The notes beneath the pieces were generated by a model. The model was not told the DNA's origin, searched no databases, and saw only the letters and a program-made list of their open reading frames with translations. A DNA stretch of 39,853 nucleotides from Akkermansia muciniphila (GTDB taxonomy: Bacteria; Verrucomicrobiota; Verrucomicrobiia; Verrucomicrobiales; Akkermansiaceae), in assembly GCA_945901795.1 (NCBI GenBank), contig CAMDLP010000027.1, positions 1 to 39,853 on the forward strand, read 5' to 3'. How positions within the stretch are numbered: the stretch's first letter is position 1; the number at the start of each line of letters is the position of its first letter. Positions 8,392 to 39,853 of the stretch are shown here, one piece after another. The position numbers and the translations under genes were made by a program.

Positions 8392-9570
8392 TCACCCGAC
8401 CAAATGCGCGCCTTGTGAGGGCCGGGAGGCGAAGATCTGCGGCGTGATGCCGGTGGCTTTTTCGTATTCCGCGCCGAGTGTGGCGGCGATTTCCGAGGCT
8501 TTGCGGGATTCGCAGAGGGTGACGGTAGAACCGCCGAAGCCGCCGCCGGTCATGCGGGTGCCGATGACTCCGCCGTTGCGGCCGATCTTGCGGGCGATCT
8601 CGACCATGATGTCGAGCTCCTTGCAGGAGACTTCAAAATCGTCGCGCAGCGAGTCGTGGCTGGCGGCCATCAGCGGGCCGAGCGTTTCGAAATCATTTCT
8701 GGCAAGCGCGGCGGCGGCGGCGATGGTGCGGGAAATCTCCCCGACAACGTGGCGGGAACGACGGTTGACCGGGTCGCCGAGCTTTTCCCAGTTCGCCTGC
8801 ACGTCGGCGGCGGTGACGTCGCGCCAGGAGGCCTTACCGAGAATGGCGAGGCCGTCTTCGGTGTGCTTGCGGCGGGCGGCGTAGCCTCCGTCGGATAGCT
8901 CGTGGTGCACCATCGTGTTCGAGATGAGCACGGTGAGGTCGGGGTTTTCGAAGGGGACAAGTTCGGGCTCGCCGGTCTGGCAGTCGATGAGGACGAGTCG
9001 GTTAGGTTTGCCGAAGGCGGAGGCGAACTGGTCCATGATGCCGCAGGGGACATGGGCGAAGTCGTGCTCAGCCTTCTGGCAGAGCAGGGCTTTTTCCTTG
9101 GTGTCGAGAACGGTGTCTAGCAGGCCTTCGAGGAAGGTGGCGGTGGCGCATTCGAGCGCGGCGGAGGACGATAAGCCCGCGCCGCCGGGGATGGAGGAGA
9201 GGATGTAGGCGTCGAAGCCGGGGACATGATGGCCGCGGTCCTGGAAACCGCGGATGACGCCGCGCAAGTAGTTCGCCCACTTGGGTTCACTGATTTCCTG
9301 GGGCTGGGTGAGGTCGAGCGTGACGACTTCCTCGCTGAGCGCGGAGGTGATCCGGGCGTTCGTCGTGCCGTTAGCACAGCCGGCGATGACGATGTAGCGG
9401 TCGATCGCGAACGGCATGACAAAGCCGTCGCAATAGTCGATGTGCTCGCCGATGAGGTTGACGCGTCCCGGCGCGGCGGCGGTGATGGTGGCCTTGGGTT
9501 GGAGACGGCCCGCGAGTCCTGCGGCGGCGTCGGTTACGAGGTCACTGAGGTTTGGATTGATCTGGAGCAT
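8392..9570 (-). CDS. galK: galactokinase
   Basis: A 392-residue galactokinase, phosphorylating alpha-D-galactose at C1 with ATP in the first committed step of the Leloir pathway. All three signatures are present: APGRVNLIGEH (33-43), the GHMP kinase ATP loop GGAGLSSSAAL (129-139), and GTRMTGGGFGGS (337-348). Asp180 in CGIMDQFAS matches the catalytic base of the family. The ATG at 9570 is 12 bases beyond the opgH stop, so it is probably the last gene of the opgG-opgH operon. No other Leloir gene is seen in the window. The length is normal. Confidence 0.96.
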   Translation of the reverse strand: MLQINPNLSDLVTDAAAGLAGRLQPKATITAAAPGRVNLIGEHIDYCDGFVMPFAIDRYIVIAGCANGTTNARITSALSEEVVTLDLTQPQEISEPKWANYLRGVIRGFQDRGHHVPGFDAYILSSIPGGAGLSSSAALECATATFLEGLLDTVLDTKEKALLCQKAEHDFAHVPCGIMDQFASAFGKPNRLVLIDCQTGEPELVPFENPDLTVLISNTMVHHELSDGGYAARRKHTEDGLAILGKASWRDVTAADVQANWEKLGDPVNRRSRHVVGEISRTIAAAAALARNDFETLGPLMAASHDSLRDDFEVSCKELDIMVEIARKIGRNGGVIGTRMTGGGFGGSTVTLCESRKASEIAATLGAEYEKATGITPQIFASRPSQGAHLVG

Positions 9571-9582
9571 GGGATTTGGAGG

Positions 9583-11763
9583 TTAGTTCGCCTCAGCGGC
9601 GGGTGATTGGTCTAGACGGCGGCGATAGCTTTCCAAGGCATGTGTCCAAGCGCTGTGGATTCCTTCCGCCGGGCGCAGCCAGACGGCGCGGTGCATCATG
9701 AGCATCGCGGGGGCGGCGTAAAGCAGTTCGGAAAGTTCGTTTTTGGAAAGTCCGGCCGGCCCCTCGCTGAGGCAGCGCTCGGCCAAGGCTTCTTCGGTCG
9801 GTGTCAGGTCGGATTGCTCCAGCAGGGCGACGTGGACTCCGTTGACGTAGGGATCGACGACGGCGGCGACGACTCCTCGACGGGCGTCGGTGGAGGCGTC
9901 GAGCGCGGGATCGACGGCGGCGGTGGCGTTGTCGGCGAGGCGGATGACGTCAGGCGGGTTGAGCTCTTCGGGGGTGGCGAGGATTTTTTTTCTCAACAGG
10001 GCGCGGCCGTAGCGGGACCGGCTGGTCCAGACGGAGACCGGCGCGGATAGCAGGAGCCCGAGTAAGATCGGGGTCATCCAGAGCGCGAAGGCATATCTTG
10101 AAGTGAAGTCGCCGGGGTTTTTCGAATGGAAGCCGATGTTGATCGCGACTGCGGTCCAGACCAGGCCGAGAATCGTCTGCGGCGCGTGGAAGCGGAAAGC
10201 GTCGGCCCACGAGGTGCCGTCGGTTTCGCGGTTTTGATTTCCCCAGCCGACCGCGCGGCCGAGGATGATGCTCAGCACCATCAGCGTGTGGGCAAGCATG
10301 ATACAGGGCGCGAGCAGCATGGAGACGATGGTTTCCAAGGTTGCTCCGATCATGATCCGGAAGGCGCCGCCGAACGAGCGGCGGATGCTTGGCGTTAGAA
10401 CCGCGCCGGTGACGGCGAGGATTTTCGGCAGGAATAACAGGGCGAAAATGAGCACGGTCAGGATGATGCTCTGTTGGATTCCGTCGATGTGGAACCAGCG
10501 GGCGGCATAGCTTTCGAAGGGCAGCTGGCTCAGGTCGCTGGAGTAGCGGTCCCAGGCGATCCAGGTGCCGAGGGCGAGGAACAGGAACCAAAGCGGGCTG
10601 CCGAGGTAGGCCATGATGCCCATGAAGAGGTGCATCCTAACGGAAAACGGCAGTTTGCGGGCGAAGATGAGCCACAGGTGCTGGAGGTTTCCCTGGCACC
10701 AGCGGCGGTCGCGGATGAGGTGGTCCACCAGCGTCGGAGGGGCTTCCTCGTAGGTGCCCTCGATGTCCCAGGCGAGCCAGACTTCCCAGCCTTGGCTGAC
10801 CATCAGCGCGGCCTCGACGAAGTCATGGCTGAGAATCCGCCCGCCGAACGGCTCGCGGCCGGGCAGGGCGGGGAGCTCGCAGAACTCGGAAAACGGCTTC
10901 ACGCGGATCAAGGCGTTGTGGCCCCAGTAGCTGCCGCCGCTGAGCTGCCAGTAGTTGAGCCCGCGGATGAAGAGCGGGCCGTAAAGCCGCATCGCGAACT
11001 GTTGAAGACGGGTGAATACCGAGACGCCGCGGATCAGTTTCGGCGGCGTCTGGAGAATCCCAAGCCGCGGATAGGCCTCCATGATGCGGGTCATCTTCAC
11101 GATGTCGGTGCCGTCCATCAGGCTGTCCGCGTCGAGCACGAGCATCGATTCGTAGTCGCCGCCCCAGGTGCGGACGAAGTCGCCGATGTTTCCCGCCTTG
11201 CGGTTCTCGTTGGTCTTGCGGCGGCGGTAATAGATGCGGCCGAACGCGTCGAGACGCCGGCAGAGGTTGGTCCACGAGGTTTCCTCCATCACCCAGAGGT
11301 CGAGGTCGCGGGTGTCGCTGAGGATGAAGAAATCGAAGGAGTCCAGATTTCCGGCGGCTTCGATGGACCGATAGATAGCCTCGATGCGGGCGCAGACGCG
11401 GACGCTGTCTTCGTTATAAACCGGGATGACCACGGCGTGACGCAGGAGCAGCGGGCCGGTCTTTCCGTCGGCGAGTTTGCTGATCCTGACTGAACGCTTG
11501 CGGCCTAGCAGCATATCGAACGCGCCGAAGATGGCATGGAACGATCCGAGTACGAGCAGGCCATTCAGGACCACGAAAATGGCCAGCAGGGGGAAGTGGG
11601 CCTTTTGAAACTGCATCCGATAGAACAGATCCGCCAGCCAGAGACTGGCCGCGATATTAACGATGACCACGCTGCCGAAAAACAGCGTGCGCCGCAGGAT
11701 CGTCCGGAAACGGCCGGAAAACGGCCTGGTGGAATCGCGGGATGTCAGGTCGGGGGTTTCCAT
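9583..11763 (-). CDS. opgH: glucans biosynthesis glucosyltransferase H
   Basis: A 726-residue inner-membrane family 2 glycosyltransferase that makes the linear beta-glucan backbone of osmoregulated periplasmic glucans from UDP-glucose. Two N-terminal membrane helices (about 25-85) precede the cytoplasmic catalytic domain, with VVIPVYNED, FILSDTRD, LVLDADSLMDG and the acceptor/product box RDRRWCQGNLQHL. Several hydrophobic segments follow, starting with HLFMGIMAYLGSPLWFLFL. The start at ATG 11763 overlaps the stop of the preceding gene by one base (TGATG), so translation is probably coupled; an earlier TTG is possible but unneeded. Known as mdoH in enterics. The C-terminal ~100 residues are soluble and Ala-rich. 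Confidence 0.95.
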   Translation of the reverse strand: METPDLTSRDSTRPFSGRFRTILRRTLFFGSVVIVNIAASLWLADLFYRMQFQKAHFPLLAIFVVLNGLLVLGSFHAIFGAFDMLLGRKRSVRISKLADGKTGPLLLRHAVVIPVYNEDSVRVCARIEAIYRSIEAAGNLDSFDFFILSDTRDLDLWVMEETSWTNLCRRLDAFGRIYYRRRKTNENRKAGNIGDFVRTWGGDYESMLVLDADSLMDGTDIVKMTRIMEAYPRLGILQTPPKLIRGVSVFTRLQQFAMRLYGPLFIRGLNYWQLSGGSYWGHNALIRVKPFSEFCELPALPGREPFGGRILSHDFVEAALMVSQGWEVWLAWDIEGTYEEAPPTLVDHLIRDRRWCQGNLQHLWLIFARKLPFSVRMHLFMGIMAYLGSPLWFLFLALGTWIAWDRYSSDLSQLPFESYAARWFHIDGIQQSIILTVLIFALLFLPKILAVTGAVLTPSIRRSFGGAFRIMIGATLETIVSMLLAPCIMLAHTLMVLSIILGRAVGWGNQNRETDGTSWADAFRFHAPQTILGLVWTAVAINIGFHSKNPGDFTSRYAFALWMTPILLGLLLSAPVSVWTSRSRYGRALLRKKILATPEELNPPDVIRLADNATAAVDPALDASTDARRGVVAAVVDPYVNGVHVALLEQSDLTPTEEALAERCLSEGPAGLSKNELSELLYAAPAMLMMHRAVWLRPAEGIHSAWTHALESYRRRLDQSPAAEAN

Positions 11764-29618: not shown

Positions 29619-29634
29619 ATTTCTTCTAAGAAAT
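29619..29634. promoter_or_regulatory. short palindrome in the dtd/macroglobulin divergent gap
   Basis: ATTTCTT and AAGAAAT are exact complements separated by CT (16 bases in total). It is centred 36 bases before the macroglobulin ATG, in the only AT-rich part of the gap, which fits an operator. No clear -35/-10 pair could be assigned. Confidence 0.3.
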
Positions 29635-29662
29635 GATCGTTTGCCGTGTCATAGTCGTCGTT

Positions 29663-32600
29663 ATGAAAATTTTGCCATGGATCTGTCTCGTCGCATTTTT
29701 CGCCCCCCTCCAACTGGTGGCCCAAGATCCGGACGCCCTCCGCAAGGAGCGCGACAAACTCGCGGAACGCGGGATGTGGCGGGAAGCCTTGGACTTCTTC
29801 CAGGAAAAGCTGATGCCGATCTCGGACGGGAAATCCGATCTGGATCTGCGGATGGCCGTCGAGGAGATCAGGGGGCAAAACGTGTGGGGCGAGTTTGACG
29901 GACTCGTCGAGCGGGTGATTTCCACGCATCCGGCGAATGCGATGCTGCTGGTTCAGGCGGCGGCATCCTATCAGTCGGCATCGCATTCCGGCCGGCTTGT
30001 CGCCGGGGAGTTCGAACGCGGCGGAGGGCCGCGTTACGGGAGGCGCTCGATGGGGCCGGATGACGTTCCTGACACTTCCGCCGGTGGATGGGTGAATACA
30101 TTTTATCGCGATCAGGTTCGCTCGTTCCAGCTTTTCCGCGATGCCGTCGGCAAATCCAAAAACGACGCCGAGCGTTACCGGGCGTGGGAGGTGTTCTCGG
30201 GGATTCGAAACGAGGAGGCACGCGGAGAGGCGTGGAAACTCCAGACTCTCACGCCCCTCGAAAATCTACCCGAATGGGGTGAGCCGGGACCGCAAGGCGG
30301 TACCGAAGGTGCGCCCTGGGCGAAGGACGGGCCGGTGCTCTACGAGGTTCCCGCATCCTGGGAAGCCGCGAAAAACGATGGCGAGCGCTGGCGTTTCGCT
30401 CTAGCGGAACGGGTCCGGCTCAAGCCTGAAACGGCGGCGAGCGTCGCGCTCGATCTCGCGGATTTCTCGAATTCCCAATTCGGCACGGAAACACTCTCGT
30501 CGTTTGGATGGTGGCGTATGCAGGATCCGGACAGCGCGAAGGGGATTCTCGAAATGGACACTCTCGCCGAGGACGAATGCCTCGCGAAAACCTCGGATGG
30601 TGTCCGCCGTTTCAAGCTGCCTGCCAGCCATCATTTCATCGCGCTCTATCGCTCGATCATGAACGAAAACGAGCAGGCCGGAGACCGACTCGTTCAAGTG
30701 TTCCTCAACCGCCGCCAATACGACAAGGCGCGCGAGGTGCTCGAGCTAACCATCGCCAAACACGGCCCCGGCAATGATGACCAGCGCAAGAAACTGCTCA
30801 AACAGATCACCGGCAACTGGGGGCGCTTCGAGCCCTCCGAGACCGTGCCCGCCGGAGTGAAACCGAAGCTGCCGCTGGTGTTCCGCAACGCCTCCGCCAT
30901 CCAGCTAACCGCCGCGCCCGTGGACATGGAGGCGGTGCTCAAGGACACGCTCGACTATCTGAAAAGCAACCCGCGCGAGCTGGACTGGCAGCGCGTCAAT
31001 CCCTCGCAGATCGCCAGCCGTCTCATTCAGGAAAACCAGTCGAAGTTCATCGGCAAAACCGCCGCGAGCTGGGAGGTGCAACTCACTCCGCGCGATAAAC
31101 ACCGCGACACCCGCGCCGACCTGGAAGTGCCGCACGACAAGGCAGGTGCCTGGTGGATCACCGGAAAAATGGACGGTGGCAACGAGTTTCACACGCTCGT
31201 CTGGATCGTGGATTCAGTGCTCGTCCAGAACGACGTGGGCGGCAAGAAGCAGTGGTGGGTCGCCGATGCCGCGGGCGGTGCGCCGGTGGCGGGCGCTGAC
31301 ATCGAGTTTTTCGGTTACCGGACGATTCATCTCGAACGGAAAAATCCGCTGGAGCGGCGGATGAATATCGGCACCAAGACATTCAATCGCACGACCGATG
31401 ACGATGGCAAAACGCTGCTCAAGCCCGGCGATTATGAAGATGATTTCCAATGGCTCGCCATCGCCCGCAAGGAGGGCCGCGCCGCCGCGTTCTTCGGATT
31501 CCAGCCCTATCATGTCGAAGTCCCGCAGCTTGAAAACGGCAACCGCGACATTACCTACGGCATCTCGGACCGCCCGCTCTACAAACCCGGCGACACCGCG
31601 CATTTGAAATTCTATCTGCGCAATGTCGGCTACTTCGAGCCGGATGAATCACGCTGGGCGAATCAAACCGGCACGCTCGTTCTTTTCAACGGTCGCGGCG
31701 AGGAGGCGATGAAACTCCAGAATCTCAAGACCGACGCGCTCGGCGCGGTGGAGAGCGAAGTCATCATTCCCAAGGACGCGGTGCTCGGAAACTGGAGCGC
31801 AGTTTTCCAGATCGCCGACCGGATTTCCGCCTCCGTTAGCCTGCGGGTGGAGGAATATCGCAAGCCGGAATACGAGGTGAAGGTCGAGGCTCCGGACGCG
31901 CCGGTGAAGCTCGGTGATAAATTCACGGCGACCGTCAAAGCGACTTATTTTCACGGCGCTCCGGTGCGGAATGCCAACGTCGAGATCATCGTGAAACGCG
32001 GTTCTATCGGCGAGCGCTGGTTCCCGGTCTGGCGCTGGGATTGGCTCTACGGCCCCGGCGCGTGGTGGAATGGCAGCGAGGCATCCTGGCATCCGGGTTG
32101 GAAAAGCTGGGGCTGCATTCCGCCGCATCCGCCGTGGTGGCAGGGGGATCGCTGGACGCCGGATGAGTTAGTCACCAAACGTAATGTGCCGATCGGTCCA
32201 GACGGCACCGCCAAGATCGAAATCGACACCGCGCCTGCCAAGCTGGTGCAGGGCGACATGGATGCGAAATACACCGTCGAGGCCCGCGTGGTGGATGCCT
32301 CGCGCCGCGAGGAGCGCGGCACCGGATCGGTGATCGCCGCCCGCAAGCCGTTCGAGGTCGTGGTGTGGACGGACCGGGGATATGCCCGTGCCGGAGAACA
32401 GGTGGAGGCAGCGATTTCCGTCGCGACGCTGGCAGGAAAACCAGTCGTCGGAGCGAAGGGAAGGCTGATCGTTTTCAAACTAACCAGTGGCGGTGACGGC
32501 CGCATCGAAGAGGAGGAAATCCAGTCCTTTCCGGTGGAGACCGATGCGCAAGGCGAAGTGAAACAACGCTTCGCCGCGCCCGCCACCGGTCAGTATCGTT

Positions 32601-35600
32601 TGGCGGCGAGCTTGTCGTTCAAGGACGGCGATCCGGCGGAAGGCGCGACGATTCTCAACGTCCATGGCCCCGGCCGCGTCGATCCCGCGGACTGGCATTT
32701 CGGCCCGCTGGAAATCATCGCCGACAAGCCGTCCCACGCTCCCGGCGAGACGGCGAAACTCCGAGTGAACAGCGACAAGGACAACGCCAACGTCTGGCTC
32801 TTCCTCCACATCGCAGGCTCCGCCGGACGCGAGGCCCGCCGCATCCAGCTCGATGGCAAGAGCCTTGAAGTCGATGTCCCGCTCGATCTGCGCGACATGC
32901 CGAACATGTTCATCGAGGGCGTCAGCGTCCACGGCGCGAAGGTTCATACCGCGGTCCGGCAGATCCTGCTGCCGCCGGTTAGCAAGGTTATCGAAGTCAC
33001 GCTCGAACCCGCCAAGAGCCGGGTGAAACCGCGCGAAACTTCCGCCCTGCGTGTCACCTTGCGCGATGCCGAGGGCAAGCCGGTCACCGGCACCGCCGTG
33101 CTGACGGTGTATGACAAATCGCTCGAAGCGATCACCGGCGGCTCTAACGTCGGGAAGATCCACGAGAATTTCTGGACGTGGAAGAACAGCTATTACCCGG
33201 CACAGAGTGCCGATTCGATTCCCCATTCACCGGGAAATCTGCTGCGTCCGAAAACCGTCGGGATGCAGTCGCTCGGTCGTTTTGGCGACGAGGGACGCTA
33301 TGCGGCGAAGGGCATGGGAGGCGGTGGTTTCGGCGCGAGGTCCAGGATGATGGAGAGTGATCCATTTAACGATTCTTCTGGTGGTGCTCCGATGATGGCG
33401 ATGGCCGCGTCCGCAGCTCCGGAACAAAAAATGGATCGAGAAGGTGATCCCTTTGCAGGCACCGCCGCACCCGCCGCCAATCCCATCCTCGTCCGCAAGG
33501 ACTTCGCCGACCTCTTGAAATGGTCCGGCGCGATCCAGACGGACGCCGATGGCCGCGCCGAGATTCCGTTGGAATTCCCGGACAATCTCACCACCTGGAA
33601 AGCCCGCGTCTGGGTGCTTGGCAAAGGCACGCAGGTCGGCGAGGGCAGCGCGGAAATCATCACTTCCAAGGAGCTGCTAGTCCGGTTGCAAGCGCCGCGC
33701 TTTCTGGTAGAACGCGACGAGTCGGTCTTCAGCGCGGTCGTCCAGAACGACCACGACGCGCCGAAGACGGTGAAGGTTTCCCTCGAACTGGATGGCAAAA
33801 ACCTCGAAGCCATCGACGGCGCGCCGCAGACCGTGGAAATCGCCGCGAAGTCGGAAGCCCGCGTCGACTGGCGGGTGAAGGCGCTGCGCGAAGGCGAGGC
33901 GACGTTCCGCATGCGCGCGGATTCGGGCGACGATGGCGATGCGGTCGAGCGCAAGCTGCCGGTGCTCGTGCACGGGATGTCGCGCCATGACGCGTGGAGC
34001 CGCGCGGTCGAACCGGGTGCGGATTCCGCGAAGATCCAAATCGAAGTGCCGGAACAACGGCGGCCGGACCAATCGAAACTCACCGTCCGCTTTTCACCCA
34101 CCATCGCCGGCGCGGTGGTGGATGCGATTCCCTATCTGGCGAGCTATCCGCACGGCTGCACCGAGCAGACCTTGAACCGCTTCGTGCCCGCCGTGATCGC
34201 CCAACAGATGCTGCGCGATCTCAAGATCAATCTCGCGGAAGTGAAAGCGAAGCGCACCAACCTCAACCCGCAGGAACTCGGCAATGCCGCCGACCGCGCC
34301 GCGCAGTGGAAGCAATGGCAAACGAACCCGGTTTTCGACGAGGTCGAGATGGAGAAAATGGTCGCGAAAGGCTTCGGGAAACTCATGTCCATGCAGAACT
34401 CCGATGGCGGCTGGGGCTGGTTTTCCGGCTACCGCGAGGTTTCCGGACCGCACACCACGGCGGTGGTGGTCCATGGATTGTTAGTTGCGAAGGCGAACGG
34501 CGCGAAGATTCCTGAGCAAATGCTGAATTCCGGTATCGCCTGGCTGATGGCATACGAGCGCAAGCAAACCGCCGCCCTGCAACTCCACGTCGAGCGCGAG
34601 GCGTTGCGCAAGGAAGGCAAGAAGATCAAGGACTCGAACAAGTATGTGAAATCCAAGTGCGATGCCATGGATGCGTTTGTTCGAATGGTTCTCGGCGAGG
34701 CCAAGCGCGATTCGGAGCCGATGCTCGCGTTTCTCTATCGGGACCGCGTCGATCTACCGGTGTATGCGAAATGCTTGTTAGGTCTGGAGCATCACCGCAA
34801 GGGTGACGAGGCCCGCCGGGACGAGGTGATGAAGATGATTTCCCAATACCTCAAGCGCGATGCCGAGAACCAGACGGCTTATCTGGATCTGCAGAACACG
34901 AATTACTGGTGGAACTGGTATGGCAGCGCGGTCGAGGCGCACGCGTGGTATCTCAAACTGCTCGCCGCCGTGAAGCCGAAGGACGCGGATACGCGCGGCC
35001 TCGTGAAGTATCTGGTGAACAACCGCAAACACGCGAGTTACTGGGAATCCACGCGCGACACGGCGTTCGCGATCGAGGCCATCGCCAGCTATTTCAAAGC
35101 CAGCGGCGAGGACGCGCCGGAGATGGAAGTGGATGTCCTGCTCGACGGGAAATCGCTGCGCAAGGTTTCCATCAACCGGGAAAACCTCTTCACCTTCGAT
35201 GGCACAGTCACGCTGACAGGCGACGCGGTGACCACGGGGAAACACGATATTGAACTCCGGCGGACGGGGAAGGGGACTCTTTACGCCAACGCCTATCTGG
35301 AAGTCTTCACCCTCGAAGACAAGCTCCGCGCCGCCGGGCTGGAGGTGAAAGTCACTCGCCGCATTTCCAAACTCATCGCCCTGAAAAATGAAACTGAAGT
35401 TCCCGATGCCACAGGATTGGTGGTGAAGCAACAGGTCGAGCGGTTCCGCCGCGAGCCGTTGGCGGACGGCGCAAAGCTTGCATCAGGCGACCGCGTGGAA
35501 GTGGAGCTGATCCTTGAAAGCAAGAACGACTACGAGTATCTGATTTTCTCCGATGCCAAGGCCGCGGGCTTCGAGGCGCTCGACGCGCTGAGCGGCTACG

Positions 35601-35818
35601 TCGGCGGCGGTGACGGATTGAGCGCGTACATGGAGCCGCGCGACCGGACGGTGGACTTCTTCATCCGCGCGCTGCCACGGGGAACGCACACCTTGCGCTA
35701 TCAGCTCCGCGCCGAGGCACCGGGGATTTACAAGGCTCTTCCGGCCACGGCGGAGGCGATGTATGCCCCCGAGCTGAGAGGGAACTCGGAGGATCTGAAA
35801 TTGGAGATTTCCAAATAA
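29663..35818 (+). CDS. large alpha-2-macroglobulin family protein with thioester motif
   Basis: A 2051-residue exported protein. KILPWICLVAFFAPLQLVAQ is a signal peptide. Residues about 25-440 are helical and TPR-like, followed by MG-type beta domains with ISDRPLYKPGDTAHLKFYL near 633. The macroglobulin core LLKWSGAIQTDADGRAEIPL is near 1285, and the thioester helical domain follows, with Cys1499 in YPHGCTEQTLNRFVP, which provides C-x-E-Q for the internal thioester bond. Bacterial members are thought to trap attacking proteases in the periplasm. Unusual parts are a Trp-rich stretch at 786-831 (12 Trp in 46 residues) and a Gly/Met/Ala-rich linker at about 1208-1270. It is longer than E. coli YfhM (about 1650), and no pbpC is adjacent. 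ATG at 29663 opens the signal peptide. The last segment (about 1850-2051) is a receptor-binding-like beta domain. Confidence 0.92.
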   Translation: MKILPWICLVAFFAPLQLVAQDPDALRKERDKLAERGMWREALDFFQEKLMPISDGKSDLDLRMAVEEIRGQNVWGEFDGLVERVISTHPANAMLLVQAAASYQSASHSGRLVAGEFERGGGPRYGRRSMGPDDVPDTSAGGWVNTFYRDQVRSFQLFRDAVGKSKNDAERYRAWEVFSGIRNEEARGEAWKLQTLTPLENLPEWGEPGPQGGTEGAPWAKDGPVLYEVPASWEAAKNDGERWRFALAERVRLKPETAASVALDLADFSNSQFGTETLSSFGWWRMQDPDSAKGILEMDTLAEDECLAKTSDGVRRFKLPASHHFIALYRSIMNENEQAGDRLVQVFLNRRQYDKAREVLELTIAKHGPGNDDQRKKLLKQITGNWGRFEPSETVPAGVKPKLPLVFRNASAIQLTAAPVDMEAVLKDTLDYLKSNPRELDWQRVNPSQIASRLIQENQSKFIGKTAASWEVQLTPRDKHRDTRADLEVPHDKAGAWWITGKMDGGNEFHTLVWIVDSVLVQNDVGGKKQWWVADAAGGAPVAGADIEFFGYRTIHLERKNPLERRMNIGTKTFNRTTDDDGKTLLKPGDYEDDFQWLAIARKEGRAAAFFGFQPYHVEVPQLENGNRDITYGISDRPLYKPGDTAHLKFYLRNVGYFEPDESRWANQTGTLVLFNGRGEEAMKLQNLKTDALGAVESEVIIPKDAVLGNWSAVFQIADRISASVSLRVEEYRKPEYEVKVEAPDAPVKLGDKFTATVKATYFHGAPVRNANVEIIVKRGSIGERWFPVWRWDWLYGPGAWWNGSEASWHPGWKSWGCIPPHPPWWQGDRWTPDELVTKRNVPIGPDGTAKIEIDTAPAKLVQGDMDAKYTVEARVVDASRREERGTGSVIAARKPFEVVVWTDRGYARAGEQVEAAISVATLAGKPVVGAKGRLIVFKLTSGGDGRIEEEEIQSFPVETDAQGEVKQRFAAPATGQYRLAASLSFKDGDPAEGATILNVHGPGRVDPADWHFGPLEIIADKPSHAPGETAKLRVNSDKDNANVWLFLHIAGSAGREARRIQLDGKSLEVDVPLDLRDMPNMFIEGVSVHGAKVHTAVRQILLPPVSKVIEVTLEPAKSRVKPRETSALRVTLRDAEGKPVTGTAVLTVYDKSLEAITGGSNVGKIHENFWTWKNSYYPAQSADSIPHSPGNLLRPKTVGMQSLGRFGDEGRYAAKGMGGGGFGARSRMMESDPFNDSSGGAPMMAMAASAAPEQKMDREGDPFAGTAAPAANPILVRKDFADLLKWSGAIQTDADGRAEIPLEFPDNLTTWKARVWVLGKGTQVGEGSAEIITSKELLVRLQAPRFLVERDESVFSAVVQNDHDAPKTVKVSLELDGKNLEAIDGAPQTVEIAAKSEARVDWRVKALREGEATFRMRADSGDDGDAVERKLPVLVHGMSRHDAWSRAVEPGADSAKIQIEVPEQRRPDQSKLTVRFSPTIAGAVVDAIPYLASYPHGCTEQTLNRFVPAVIAQQMLRDLKINLAEVKAKRTNLNPQELGNAADRAAQWKQWQTNPVFDEVEMEKMVAKGFGKLMSMQNSDGGWGWFSGYREVSGPHTTAVVVHGLLVAKANGAKIPEQMLNSGIAWLMAYERKQTAALQLHVEREALRKEGKKIKDSNKYVKSKCDAMDAFVRMVLGEAKRDSEPMLAFLYRDRVDLPVYAKCLLGLEHHRKGDEARRDEVMKMISQYLKRDAENQTAYLDLQNTNYWWNWYGSAVEAHAWYLKLLAAVKPKDADTRGLVKYLVNNRKHASYWESTRDTAFAIEAIASYFKASGEDAPEMEVDVLLDGKSLRKVSINRENLFTFDGTVTLTGDAVTTGKHDIELRRTGKGTLYANAYLEVFTLEDKLRAAGLEVKVTRRISKLIALKNETEVPDATGLVVKQQVERFRREPLADGAKLASGDRVEVELILESKNDYEYLIFSDAKAAGFEALDALSGYVGGGDGLSAYMEPRDRTVDFFIRALPRGTHTLRYQLRAEAPGIYKALPATAEAMYAPELRGNSEDLKLEISK

Positions 35819-36056
35819 GTGCCCGTGACCTGTCTCCAACGTGGCTGCGACGTCTACGCGTGCAATCACCGCGCAAGTCATGAGAGGCGGAATCTGAGGC
35901 GGGGTCTAGCGGAATCGCCGGGAGGATGGCACGCATCGGGCACACCCAGGATTTCCCGAAAAAGTGGAGGTGATGATTTCTGCTTTGAAAGCCATATTTC
36001 AGGCACTCGCCACAGGATCGGGCGCACATTGGGAACAAACAGAAAACCCCTAACGC
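35819..36056. other. spacer after the macroglobulin gene
   Basis: About 240 bases with no supportable gene, no long repeat and no clear terminator for the macroglobulin transcript. It ends at the terminator of the tRNA-Leu remnant read from the opposite strand. Confidence 0.5.
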
Positions 36057-36080
36057 AAAAAAGGAAGCCTTCCGGCTCCC
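36057..36080 (-). terminator. intrinsic terminator downstream of the tRNA-Leu remnant
   Basis: On the minus strand GGGAGCC-ggaa-GGCTTCC forms a seven-pair stem (one G-T pair) followed by six T. It lies 26 bases past the 3' end of the tRNA-Leu fragment, as expected for the original tRNA terminator. Confidence 0.8.
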
Positions 36081-36105
36081 TAAGTTGTTCATCCTAAAAG
36101 GAAAG

Positions 36106-36150
36106 TGCTCGAAAGAGGACTCGAACCTCCACAGGTTACCCCACTAGATC
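36106..36150 (-). tRNA. 3' half of a tRNA-Leu gene (att-like remnant, not functional)
   Basis: Read on the minus strand, the 45 bases give the 3' anticodon stem (TCTAG), the long class II variable arm (TGGGGTAACCTG), the T arm GGAGG-TTCGAGT-CCTCT, the acceptor 3' strand TTCGAGC and discriminator A. This closely matches bacterial tRNA-Leu. The matching 5' half (acceptor strand starting GCTCGAA, D arm, 5' anticodon stem) is not upstream: the sequence there reads GCACCACTAAAGA and is AT-rich. No CCA is encoded. The break at the anticodon loop is where tyrosine recombinases commonly cross over in tRNA genes. I infer that this is the displaced end left by an integrated element, the intact tRNA-Leu being at the other end of the element beyond the window. 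Confidence 0.75.
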
Positions 36151-36462
36151 TTTAGTGGTGCAACTCGTTGATTATCATTCATTTATGTTCCTTTCAGTGC
36201 GTTAAATTGCCCATTTTTTCCAAATGAGGCAGCTTAGATTGGAGCAAGTTAGAGCACTGACGGGAAGGTATTTTGTCGCCATTTGTCGCCTATTATCAAT
36301 GCTTTATGGAACATTTAAGCACCCGCAGGAATGGCTTTTTCCTGCCGTGAAACCGAAGTGTCCCTCCTCGATTTTTCGGTCTAGTCGCCCTCCCACACGT
36401 TGACATGGAAACACCGGGCATGGACACGCAATTTACTTCGCTGCGCATCGAACTCGACCTGA
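36151..36462. other. AT-rich non-coding stretch beside the tRNA remnant
   Basis: About 310 bases with visibly lower GC than the core genes and no supportable gene. It contains the TTTGTCGCC direct repeat (36271-36290) and a hairpin GCAGGAA-tggcttt-TTCCTGC (36325-36345). A short frame starting at ATG 36420 reads DTQFTSLRIELDLITDC and stops; it is too short to call. Confidence 0.5.
36271..36290. repeat. direct repeat TTTGTCGCC, two copies, period 10
   Basis: TTTGTCGCC occurs at 36272-36280 and 36282-36290, so the copies are one DNA helical turn apart on the same face. They lie about 120 bases inside the putative element from the tRNA-Leu junction, a plausible place for recombinase or excisionase arm sites. 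Confidence 0.55.
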
Positions 36463-37347
36463 TCACCGATTGCCGAGCTTGATGCGCTTGCCGCCGCCGG
36501 CTGGCGCGGAGCGGTCTTTTTCGTGGATGATAACTTCATCGGCAACAAACGCAGGCTGCGGCAGGAACTGCTGCCGGCGCTCATCGCCTGGCAAAAGCAA
36601 CACCGCCACCCCTTCACATTTTATACCGAGGCGTGGATCAATCTGGCGGACGACGAGGCGCTCACCCGTGACATCGTGGCGGCGGGATTCGACTCGGTGT
36701 TCATCGGGATCGAAACGCCCGACGAAGCCGGATTGGCGGAGTGCAACAAACGGCAGAACCGCAGTCGTAATTTGCTGGCCGATATCAAGCGCTTGCAGCG
36801 CGCCGGACTGGAAGTGCAGGGAGGATTCATCGTCTGTTTCGATTCCGACACCTTGTCGATTTTCCATCGACAGATCGAATTCATCCGGAACAGCGGGATC
36901 ACCACGGCGATGGTTGGAATGCTCAATGCCCTGCCCGGCACCCGGGAACGTTTGCGCGGCGAGGGGCGGCTGTTGGGAAACTCGAGCGGCAACAATGTCG
37001 ATGGTACGACAAGCTTCGTGCCGAAAATGGACATGACCGATCTGCGAGAGGGGTATCGCCACCTCATGGAGGAGACGATCTATGCGCCCGGCCCTTATTA
37101 CCGGCGAGTGAGAACTTTCCTGCGCGAGTTCCAACCTGCGAAAATCCCATCACGGATGGACTTGCGGAAACTTGCCGCATTCATGCGCGCCATGGTGAGT
37201 CTCGGAATGATCGGTCGCGAGCGGTTCCAATACTGGAGGCTATTGGTTTGGACGACCTGCCGCCGGCCATTCCTGCTCCCGGTGGCCGTGAAACTGGCAA
37301 TCTTCGGCCGCCACTTCCGGCATTGCGCCCATGCGCTCGCGCGATAA
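36463..37347 (+). pseudogene. 5'-truncated B12-binding-type radical SAM protein (DUF4070-like)
   Basis: The frame encodes about 290 residues of the C-terminal part of a radical SAM protein with DUF4070-like tail: IAELDALAAAGWRGAVFFVD, DDNFIGNKRRLRQELLPALI, FTFYTEAWINLADDEAL, FDSVFIGIETPDEAGLAE, and DGTTSFVPKMDMTDLREGY. A stop at 36460-36462 precedes it and no proper start codon exists before GTG at 36523. The N-terminal cobalamin domain and the C-x3-C-x2-C cluster motif are absent, so it cannot be active. Also, a normally conserved Gly in VGFDSDT is Cys (VCFDSDT) and residues after PGTR are lost, which fits decay. It lies inside the putative island. Confidence 0.75.
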
Positions 37348-37376
37348 CTGGAAATCAAATCCAGTCCCCGCGAAAG

Positions 37377-37405
37377 AACCCCTCGAACAAATGTTTCGAG
37401 GGGTT
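37377..37405. terminator. strong hairpin, probably two-way terminator
   Basis: An exact 11-base stem AACCCCTCGAA / TTCGAGGGGTT with a seven-base loop. It lies between the convergent radical SAM remnant (+) and the Tyr-rich lipoprotein gene (-) and has T-rich sequence on both sides (TTTC on plus, TTCTTTC on minus). Confidence 0.7.
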
Positions 37406-37426
37406 TCACCGGCTCGTGTCTTGTTT

Positions 37427-38023
37427 TCAGTAAGGACTGCTGACAATGACGTAGGTGTCGTTCTGGCGGCGGTAATACCGATCCCCGACTTGATAGTATT
37501 CATTCCCACGGTGTTTTACCACGCGGTATCCGTCCGGAAGACGGGTCATGACTTCGCCGCGATCATATCGTTGGTCATGACGGTTGGATGACTCCCTATA
37601 ATCCCGGCTCGGCTGGTAGGTCTGCTGGCGGCGACTGTAGTCGTCATAGTAACGACTGGTGCGGGGCGCATCGACAACCACATAGCCACCGGAACCCGGC
37701 CGATAGTAATAGCCATCGTGGTAATAGTAGGTGCTGCCCGAGATGTTTTCACTGCGGTAGCCACCTGGAAGGGAATTGACCCTGTATCCCGGGCTATATC
37801 TGGTGACGGAGACCGATCCGCCGCCTTGTGAATCATAGGGGACAACGCAGGAAACCAGTCCCATGCAAAGAGCAACGCCGGTGATGACGAACATCGGCCT
37901 GACGAATGTATTCGGTTTTTCGGAGCTCTCTGGCCGGGCCGCATCGTCGCGTTTACCGCTGGCCGGTTGCTGTTGGTGATTGTTTGTCTTCATATCACGC
38001 GTGGATTTGATTTCGATTTTCAT
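37427..38023 (-). CDS. Tyr-rich putative lipoprotein with two internal repeats
   Basis: A 198-residue protein with a hydrophilic 40-residue N-terminal stretch, then a hydrophobic segment ending in a lipobox (CMGLVSC, Cys59). The mature part has two related units: LPGGYRSENISGSTYYYHDG continuing to YVVVDAP, and LPDGYRVVKHRGNEYYQVGD continuing to YVIVSSPY. A Tyr/Arg/Asp-rich linker (DDYSRRQQTYQPSRDYRE) separates them. Similar YYY...VVV units occur in DUF6515-like envelope proteins. The function is unknown. ATG at 38023 is chosen because AAAGGA lies about 11 bases upstream; ATG at 37993 is an alternative. A long N-terminus before a lipoprotein signal is odd and may mean it is membrane-anchored instead. 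Confidence 0.7.
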   Translation of the reverse strand: MKIEIKSTRDMKTNNHQQQPASGKRDDAARPESSEKPNTFVRPMFVITGVALCMGLVSCVVPYDSQGGGSVSVTRYSPGYRVNSLPGGYRSENISGSTYYYHDGYYYRPGSGGYVVVDAPRTSRYYDDYSRRQQTYQPSRDYRESSNRHDQRYDRGEVMTRLPDGYRVVKHRGNEYYQVGDRYYRRQNDTYVIVSSPY

Positions 38024-38325
38024 GGCTGTATTTTTCCTTTCAGTTGATTTTCATTCGCAGTGAATTTGACCTCGAATGGATCTCCACCTTGGCGGATACG
38101 GTGATCATGGCTCATGATGATGGCTTCTTCCATGGGGTGAAACCCTAAGGTCGATCATGCGGACGGTTGCCGGAGCCTGTGCGTGGATTTCCCATAATCC
38201 GTCATTCACGCCAAAATTTTGGTTGCGACCAGGTTTCCTGTCGAACACGTTACAGTTTAAGACGCGGGATGGGATGTGGCTTTGCTTGCATCAATGCCGC
38301 TTTGAAGATCAGGTTGATAAATCGC

Positions 38326-39774
38326 ATGAAAAAACCATCACCGGCCAGGAGGATAAGGAAGCCTGTTCCTGCGGTTCAGCAGAAAGGACCCGCATCACAA
38401 GCGGCGGCTTCGTTTCCGATTGTTGGCATCGGCGCGTCTGCTGGCGGATTCGAGGCGCTGGAACAGTTCCTGGCGCATGTCCCGGCGGAATGCGGGATGG
38501 CTTTTGGAATCATCCAGCATCTGGACCCTACCCGCAAGGGACTGATGCCGGAACTTCTCCAACGCGGCACCCTGATGAAAGTGGTGCAGGTGAAGGGCAG
38601 GACGCTGGTCCGCCCGGACTGCGTGTATGTCATTCCGCCGAACAAGGACATGTCCATCCTGCACGGAGTCCTTCATTTGTTCGAACCCTTGGAGAAACGC
38701 GGGCAGCGTCTGCCGGTCGATTTTTTCCTGCGCTCACTCGCCTTCGATCAGCAGCAGAAAGCCATCGGTGTGGTTCTATCAGGCGTGGGTTCCGATGGCA
38801 CTCCGGGGCTTCGTGAAATCAAGGAGAAAAGCGGCCTGGTGGTCGCGCAGGAACCGTCCACAGCGAAGTTCGACAGCATGCCGCGCAGCGTGATCGATGC
38901 CGGCCTGGCGGACATCGTGGCTCCGGCGGATGAATTGCCCGGACGGATCATGGCTTATCTGCAACGCGTGCCCTATGAAGCGATTCCGGAAACATCGGTC
39001 GATTCCGTCACACGCGGCGCCCTTGAAAAGATCCTGATCCTCCTGCGCCAGCGGACGTGCCACGATTTCTCCTTCTATAAGAAAAGCACTCTTTATCGCC
39101 GGATCGAGCGCCGCATGGGCATCCACCAGATCGACAGGATCGCGTCCTATGTTCGTTTCCTGAACGAGAGTCCGCAGGAACTGGACCTGCTCTTCATGGA
39201 ATTCCTCATCGGCGTGACGGGATTTTTCCGTGATCCTCAGGTATGGCAGGTGTTGCGCGATAAAACCCTGCCCGCGCTGCTTGCCAGCCACCCCACGCGA
39301 CTGCTGCGCGCATGGGTCGCCGGGTGTTCCACCGGAGAGGAAGCCTATTCACTGGCCATCGTGTTCAGGGAGGCAATTGAGAAACTTCCTCCCGGGAAAA
39401 ATTTCAAACTCCAGATCTTCGCCACGGATCTCAACCGCGATGCGATCGACAAGGCGCGCCGGTGCGTTTATCCGGAAAAAATCCGCGCGGATGTCACTCC
39501 GGAGCAATTGCGCCGTTACTTCACCAAGGAGGAAGGCGGCTACCGGGTACGCGCCGAGATCCGCGAAATGGTGATCTTCTCGCCTCACAGCCTGATCATG
39601 GACCCTCCTTTCACCAAGCTGGACATCGTGAGCTGCCGCAACCTGCTGATCTATCTACTGCCTGAGATGCAGAAGAAACTTTTTCCACGGTTTCATTACA
39701 GCCTGAGGCTCTTGATGGAATTCGGTGGAAATTCTTGCGGCAAGTGTCCGGGGTCGGCAAGACTTTCCTGGTGA
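38326..39774 (+). CDS. CheB-CheR fusion (methylesterase/methyltransferase), 3' end cut off by an ISL3-family insertion
   Basis: Homology runs from ATG 38326 to about 39706 (460 residues); the last 22 residues come from IS DNA. Residues 31-215 are a CheB methylesterase domain with the catalytic triad Ser38 (GIGASAGG), His65 (IIQHLDP) and Asp157 (GVGSDGTPG). Residues about 228-460 are CheR: helical N-domain (HDFSFYKKSTLYRRIERRM), FLIGVTGFFRDP, the SAM loop VAGCSTGEEAYSLAI and FATDLNRDAID. Related proteins continue with PGGILFLG and then PAS and kinase domains. Here the frame meets the IS left end directly after FHYSL, so the CheR domain lacks its last strands and all sensor parts. No receiver domain precedes CheB. 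The gene is probably inactive or makes a fragment. Confidence 0.85.
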   Translation: MKKPSPARRIRKPVPAVQQKGPASQAAASFPIVGIGASAGGFEALEQFLAHVPAECGMAFGIIQHLDPTRKGLMPELLQRGTLMKVVQVKGRTLVRPDCVYVIPPNKDMSILHGVLHLFEPLEKRGQRLPVDFFLRSLAFDQQQKAIGVVLSGVGSDGTPGLREIKEKSGLVVAQEPSTAKFDSMPRSVIDAGLADIVAPADELPGRIMAYLQRVPYEAIPETSVDSVTRGALEKILILLRQRTCHDFSFYKKSTLYRRIERRMGIHQIDRIASYVRFLNESPQELDLLFMEFLIGVTGFFRDPQVWQVLRDKTLPALLASHPTRLLRAWVAGCSTGEEAYSLAIVFREAIEKLPPGKNFKLQIFATDLNRDAIDKARRCVYPEKIRADVTPEQLRRYFTKEEGGYRVRAEIREMVIFSPHSLIMDPPFTKLDIVSCRNLLIYLLPEMQKKLFPRFHYSLRLLMEFGGNSCGKCPGSARLSW

Positions 39775-39853
39775 AAAGCACCGATTTTTACCGTCAGATT
39801 CTTGGGATCTCCGCTCCGTGGAAGATCGTGAACGTGGAACTCGACATGGAGGC
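39707..39853 (+). mobile_element. left end of an ISL3-family insertion sequence (runs off window)
   Basis: The boundary GGCTCTTGATGGAATTC at 39707 has the GGCTCTT start typical of ISL3-family terminal inverted repeats. It falls exactly where CheR homology stops, and a transposase reading frame begins 64 bases later. ISL3 elements duplicate 8 bases; the expected target copy here is CAGCCTGA (39699-39706). Confidence 0.7.
39771..39853 (+). CDS. ISL3-family transposase (3' end outside window)
   Basis: GTG at 39771 opens a frame reading VKSTDFYRQILGISAPWKIV and then NVELDMEA to the window edge. This is the usual beginning of ISL3 transposases (a D-x-YRQ-x-LG-x-x-PW pattern followed by a V-x-LD strand), just before their zinc-finger region. 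Its start overlaps the stop of the interrupted CheB-CheR frame (GTGA), by chance of insertion. Only 27 codons are visible, so completeness is unknown. Confidence 0.7.
   Translation, partial: MKSTDFYRQILGISAPWKIVNVELDME

Follow-up and report, generated by a model that had tools for sequence, protein, structure and literature searches.

A displaced tRNA-Leu half marks the probable edge of inserted DNA in a verrucomicrobial draft genome

Results

The DNA analyzed here, referred to as the window, is a stretch of 39,853 nucleotides that makes up the whole of contig C27 of one draft genome (G000; 3.28 Mb in 120 contigs). The best relatives retrieved with a flanking protein carry the names Akkermansia, Akkermansiaceae or Verrucomicrobia, and most of these genomes, with few exceptions, are metagenome-derived. 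For comparison within the genus we used a set of 73 genomes (G numbers), in which individual loci received L numbers. The right-hand part of the window contains the following features, in which the plus strand is the strand as given.

29633 to 35818, plus: bacterial alpha-2-macroglobulin gene (Pfam), the flank beyond the far side of the displaced tRNA half
36031 to 36038, minus: TTGTTCCC at +117, a possible arm-type site on the far side of the displaced half (one match expected by chance in the window)
36034 to 36156, minus: probable attachment-site copy comprising the tRNA-Leu 3′ part, a spacer, a terminator and 28 further bases (121 of 123 bases identical to C62:9504-9626)
36062 to 36081, minus: stem-loop of an intrinsic terminator, carried with the displaced half (fold z of −2.1)
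36105 to 36156, minus: displaced 3′ part of tRNA-Leu(AAG), 52 of 83 bases (alignment to C62:9504-9555)
36272 to 36290, minus: GGCGACAAATGGCGACAAA, a probable pair of arm-type sites of the IntA kind on the island side, at about −135 and −125 (shuffle mean 0.04; at most 3 mismatches)
36405 to 36469, plus: 5′ part (21 codons) of an excisionase-like HTH_17 gene that breaks off at 36469 (homology to G090:C61)
36463 to 37347, plus: radical SAM/DUF4070 gene without its 5′ end, joined at about 36470 (Pfam)
37427 to 38023, minus: gene for a DUF6515 protein (Pfam)
38167 to 39706, plus: CheB-CheR portion of a CheB-CheR-PAS gene, broken at 39706 and continued on C62 from 16245 downward on the minus strand (Pfam)
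39699 to 39706, plus: 8-base target-site duplication CAGCCTGA, with its second copy at C62:16238-16245, minus
39707 to 39853, plus: terminal stretch of an insertion sequence, where the contig stops (the same 147 bases end C23 and C15)

The stretch at 36034-36156 is one copy of a direct repeat whose other copy lies on contig C62 (9504-9626). Both mismatches between the two copies lie toward the island, within the first 15 bases, and the last 108 bases are identical. The C62 copy includes the 3′ part of an intact tRNA-Leu(AAG) gene at 9473-9555, and the window copy of this gene breaks off in the anticodon loop. The first-pass annotation of this DNA had described a tRNA-Leu 3′ half of 45 bases followed by a terminator in the same direction. 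The half is real but longer, because the shared tRNA part spans 52 bases, and the terminator stem is shared with the C62 copy. A genome-wide search with 36057-36200 recovered the near-identical 3′ half that the annotation had proposed to look for, at C62:9504-9603 (98% identity; E value of 7.9 × 10−44). The only other match was a 32-base terminator-like stretch beside a tRNA-Tyr gene on C23, and no third copy of the half was found in the whole genome. ARAGORN detected no tRNA in the window. The acceptor of the intact tRNA begins with GCTCGGA, not with the predicted GCTCGAA. To the right of the half, the G+C content is 47.0% (36157-36469) compared with 61.1% for positions 1-35818, in agreement with the AT-rich DNA described there earlier. 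An A at position 34 is rare among bacterial leucine tRNAs; ARAGORN placed tRNA-Leu with the anticodon AAG at 62 loci of the genus sample.

The other ends of the two contigs suggest how they are connected. Both terminate in foreign sequence, 147 bases on C27 and 149 bases on C62, and 21 of the 30 outermost bases of the two ends agree as terminal inverted repeats. Since the 147-base end recurs as exact copies at the ends of C23 and C15 and as a partial match on C116, it belongs to a multi-copy insertion sequence, possibly of the ISL3 type; its ends (38 to 49 residues) match no Pfam or NCBIfam model. Among the three contig ends bearing the 147 bases, only that of C27 is flanked by CAGCCTGA, which is absent at C23 and C15. 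The C62 end carries the PAS part of such a CheB-CheR-PAS gene (Pfam). In G062 this gene is unbroken (L169, G062:C109), with 94% and 92% DNA identity to either side of the interruption; G024 has the CheB-CheR, PAS and histidine kinase genes one after another, the arrangement that the join would give. From these data we infer that C27 and C62 are joined through one insertion sequence, which is itself unassembled and spanned by no contig.

In this arrangement, the displaced half and the intact tRNA gene would face each other. The segment between them would consist of window 36157-39706, the insertion sequence, and C62 from 16245 down to about 9556, that is, some 10.2 kb plus the insertion sequence. 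The locus would then have what is expected of an island in a tRNA gene, namely, an intact target and a near-identical 3′ fragment, correctly oriented by virtue of the proposed join. Two expectations of the first-pass annotation were borne out: the intact tRNA-Leu would lie farther right on the minus strand, albeit on another contig, and the DNA rightward of about 36156 (the annotation gave 36150) is best read as inserted DNA. The identical insertion-sequence ends at three contig ends also account for several assembly breaks.

The annotation had further expected an integrase near one end. This was not borne out: a search of the G000 genome with PF00589 gave seven matches (E value up to 0.001), none of them on C27 or C62, and the segment contains no integrase gene. 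C62 carries a relic of such a gene at 9841-9945, whose 35 residues, including an in-frame stop, are 80% identical over their length to part (residues 437-471) of a tyrosine recombinase of G004 that is 473 residues long and is here called IntA. In G004 the reading frame of IntA starts within the 3′ half of the same tRNA, and in G017 within a displaced half; stretches within the 385 bases that follow the C62 relic are also conserved after IntA in G017 and G004. On the window side, 36091-36469 is 84% identical to G090:C61, where a small excisionase-like HTH_17 gene is complete (its match to an NCBIfam excisionase model is below the cut-off). The homology stops at 36469, and the truncated gene adjoins the probable arm-type sites of the window. 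In the gene fragment joined to it, DUF4070 scored above the Pfam cut-off and radical SAM below. The two relics show that both mobility genes were cut, and the segment no longer looks like a working element, as the integrase body and most of the excisionase-like gene are lost. More relics of the IntA gene end, with some of the bases conserved after it, occur at L051 (14759-15269) and L184 (1092-1726), about 5 and 8 kb downstream of the tRNA, as expected of older insertion layers.

The DUF6515-CheB-CheR-PAS cluster occupies different places in G000 and G062. In G062 it neighbors helicase and PEP-utilising-enzyme genes, whose 92% identical counterparts in G000 (C3:83515, L229) adjoin not the cluster but a gene that, from its translation alone, we take to be dnaE-like. 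As it sits elsewhere in G062, the cluster may not be original cargo.

Comparison across the genus showed that the tRNA-Leu gene is an insertion hotspot. The displaced halves in G005, G017 and G027 have a tyrosine-recombinase gene 95 to 133 bases away on the island side; two of these three recombinases fall below the Pfam cut-off, yet match a PHROG integrase family at about 10−18 or better. G090 and G077 also hold displaced halves, and no recombinase was found on the island side of either. On a single 680-kb contig of G073, the intact gene lies at 332 kb. Displaced halves stand at 273, 214 and 129 kb, and a recombinase match begins 99 to 213 bases from each of them, which makes three tandem islands of about 59, 59 and 85 kb. 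The tRNA-Leu(CAG) gene of G073 has a displaced half too. In the window and eight other displaced tRNA-Leu(AAG) halves, the copied part starts within six bases of one point (equivalent to C62 9500-9505), and recombinase genes or matches stand beside six of the eight others. A 77% match to window 36105-36224 in G088:C10 (L171) aligned poorly and was left out.

The surroundings of the intact gene fit this pattern. When open reading frames of at least 110 residues were compared at 20 intact loci, an upstream gene family (ABC transporter ATPase) was common to 12 of them; downstream, within 4 kb, a single pair of loci (L044 and L045) shared a family, IntA excepted. On the other flank of the segment, none of 94 alpha-2-macroglobulin loci (80 plus 14, on contigs that are partly the same) matched the tRNA half, and in the 73 genomes the flank was joined to the half in G000 only, in a search that would miss a diverged flank. 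The gene order beside this flank differs between the relatives looked at. The comparison with related genomes that the annotation had suggested thus gave a divided answer: the same truncated half without an island was seen in none of them, but the same flanks lacking the island were not found either.

Downstream of the intact gene, we searched for exact repeats of at least 8 bases between +100 and +165 at the 59 of 62 intact AAG loci that were long enough. Repeat pairs were present at 19 of the 59; the period was always 11, and the start fell between +117 and +129. Over 200 shuffles, an average of 0.04 loci had a pair with period 11, and 0.37 had one when any period from 8 to 14 was allowed. 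In five control intervals lying farther downstream, the counts were 2, 2, 1, 0 and 0 loci, none with period 11. The motif TGGCGACA accounts for 10 of the 19 repeat-bearing loci, where it lies at the beginning of the IntA gene; different motifs are found at the remaining nine. Like pairs occur on the island sides of several displaced halves. The view that the repeats are simply coding sequence was rejected in part, given these nine loci and the fact that the island-side copies of the window, of G090 and of G077 lie away from an IntA start. It should be noted that the intact-side TGGCGACA repeat overlaps the IntA start, which renders its 13/13 association with IntA partly circular; pieces of IntA without the motif occur at four loci (L193, L178, L172 and L211). 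The attachment site of phage lambda has a core flanked by arms that bear repeated arm-type sites, and the layout here is alike, with the core in a tRNA gene. Judged by position, spacing and the matching of ends described below, arm-type integrase sites would be the most economical reading of the paired repeats. The same kind of pairs (TTCGGCCA, CTGCCCGAATA) was seen at the tRNA-Leu(CAG) loci L047, L050, L221 and L222.

For nine displaced halves, the same genome holds a partner, either an intact gene or a neighboring half. The end motifs match in seven of these nine pairs of island ends, namely, three AAG pairs and one CAG pair of G073 and those of G027, G077 and G017, a count to be read knowing that the matches were noticed by eye before scoring and that the loci are mutually non-independent. 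A first score placed true pairs low (32 of 74 for L041-L040 in G017 and 13 of 74 for L175-L174 in G073). With a wider search window these pairs ranked 1 and 2, with a margin of at most 1 point over other loci, and the matches of G017 and of the second G073 island consist of one word of 11 to 15 bases. L172-L180 ranked 2 to 3 and L176-L175 ranked 6 because other elements with the same motif tie or score higher. The two pairs without a match are those of G090 and G000. In G090 (L170-L178; ranks 73 and 70 of 74) the mismatch is explained by deletion of the arm beside its intact gene, for which reason it was set aside. The intact partner of the G005 half was not identified.

The ends of the G000 segment differ in kind. 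The GGCGACAAATGGCGACAAA pair on the island side of the window half has counterparts beside the displaced halves of G077 and, with one base changed, of G090. Across the half, on its far side, TTGTTCCC stands at the end of the copied stretch, and the second copy known from C62 is not intact here. The intact side on C62 has TTGTTCCC at +117 and +128; altogether, five copies were found on C62 compared with 0.6 expected, and two of them, at 9787-9803, may be the far arm of a later element. A single intact element of the lambda type should bear the same motif at both ends, but the window end has GGCGACAAA and the C62 end TTGTTCCC; in the end matching, the G000 partner ranked 18 of 74, with no shared motif. 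The presence of different probable arm-type sites at its two ends suggests that the segment is probably what remains of at least two insertions, and the single element assumed by the first-pass annotation was not upheld.

Discussion

We conclude, with a probability of roughly 85%, that window 36034-36156 is a junction of DNA inserted by a tyrosine recombinase into tRNA-Leu(AAG). In the proposed history, the incoming DNA would have supplied a new 3′ half through recombination in the tRNA gene, now at C62:9473-9555, and the old 3′ half with its terminator would have been displaced to the far end of the insert. Several points speak against this reading: no empty site was found among the loci searched, the 123-base repeat, terminator included, exceeds many attachment-site cores in length, and the integrase relic is a short stretch interrupted by a stop. 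On balance, we favor the view that the segment is what is left of at least two insertions at this gene, now merged. One would be an IntA-type element, with its island-side arm in the window and its integrase relic on C62; the other, a TTGTTCCC-type element, would have left the arm that is now beside the intact tRNA. As to the order of events, the IntA-type insertion presumably occurred at a gene that already bore a TTGTTCCC-type arm, a second TTGTTCCC-type arm would later have come to sit next to the tRNA, and deletions would then have taken out the bodies of the elements. The 108-base identity despite the unlike ends speaks against this history and would need either a second insertion, by a near-identical element, or gene conversion.

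Gene conversion is also at the heart of the strongest alternative, in which one IntA-type element inserted once and decayed, and the terminator with the TTGTTCCC stretch was later copied from the displaced to the intact copy by homologous recombination or gene conversion. This would account for the identity of the two copies over their last 108 bases and for the fact that the C62 relic and the window-side arm are both of the IntA type. Nevertheless, the window copy in its present state cannot have been the sole donor, because C62 has a second complete TTGTTCCC that is missing from the window copy, as well as two others at 9787-9803. We regard this course of events as unlikely, though a serious competitor.

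An ordinary segmental duplication or rearrangement, with no recombinase involved, would agree with the fact that neither an empty site nor a working integrase was found, but it is very improbable: nine displaced halves start within six bases of one point rather than at scattered breakpoints, recombinase genes or matches accompany six of the eight other halves, and the segment itself holds integrase and excisionase-like relics. It is equally improbable that the half sits in a chimeric contig produced by assembly or binning, even in a draft of 120 contigs with an estimated contamination of 2.57%, because G090 has the half and 313 island-side bases in the same arrangement at 84% identity, and the C27-C62 join is backed by the target duplication and two relatives.

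A wider rule can be put forward tentatively, and we would not give it even odds. Many different integrases of this Akkermansiaceae genus may share a target, the anticodon loop of tRNA-Leu, and an attachment-site geometry, in which paired sites stand 11 bp apart and begin +117 to +129 from the core. The arm motif of each kind could act as an identity tag that blocks cross-excision of stacked islands and allows their ends to be paired by sequence, and the G000 segment would have been stranded once its tags no longer matched.

The G000 segment is a known kind of feature. According to the Islander study (PMC4383910), tRNA-targeted islands have the same ends, an intact tRNA gene and a correctly oriented displaced fragment of the cognate 3′ end, and the tandem arrays described there have one fragment and one integrase per member, like those of G073. 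Unlike those islands, the G000 segment has no integrase gene and its ends lie on two contigs; lacking this gene, it would be rejected by the integrase filter of Islander.

A study of Oenococcus oeni prophages (PMC8074189) describes arm-type direct-repeat sites. There, likewise, tyrosine recombinases act at tRNA-Leu 3′ ends, direct repeats lie on both arms, and the repeat sequences vary with the integrase. Phylum and motifs differ from ours, and the G000 segment is broken. In our data, by comparison, the spacing of the repeats from the core is similar from one element to another, and the repeats connect the ends of islands that are stacked. In a marine-phage study (PMC3861242), an attachment site connects one group of phages with a Verrucomicrobia genome; the portion available describes no tRNA-Leu hotspot of this kind. 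Among the matches listed in a search of the openly licensed literature, we found no description of such a hotspot in Verrucomicrobia, Akkermansiaceae or Luteolibacter.

Collectively, our data fix the boundary of the inserted DNA in G000, account for the ends of two contigs and bring to light a hotspot of insertion among environmental Verrucomicrobiota. Where genomes are fragmented, island ends might be paired simply by their matching repeats, which also offer a testable guess as to which integrase uses which site.

Two further observations were made near displaced halves. About 7 kb from the displaced tRNA-Leu half of G017:C45, 11 tRNA genes, including four tRNA-Leu genes with different anticodons, lie within 1.4 kb (L041, 1663-3047), perhaps as a phage tRNA array. 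Beside the displaced half in G090:C61 (L170, 1401-8183) there are genes for an MmeI-like restriction-modification protein, DarT and a macro-domain protein, and islands of this kind may thus carry defence genes.
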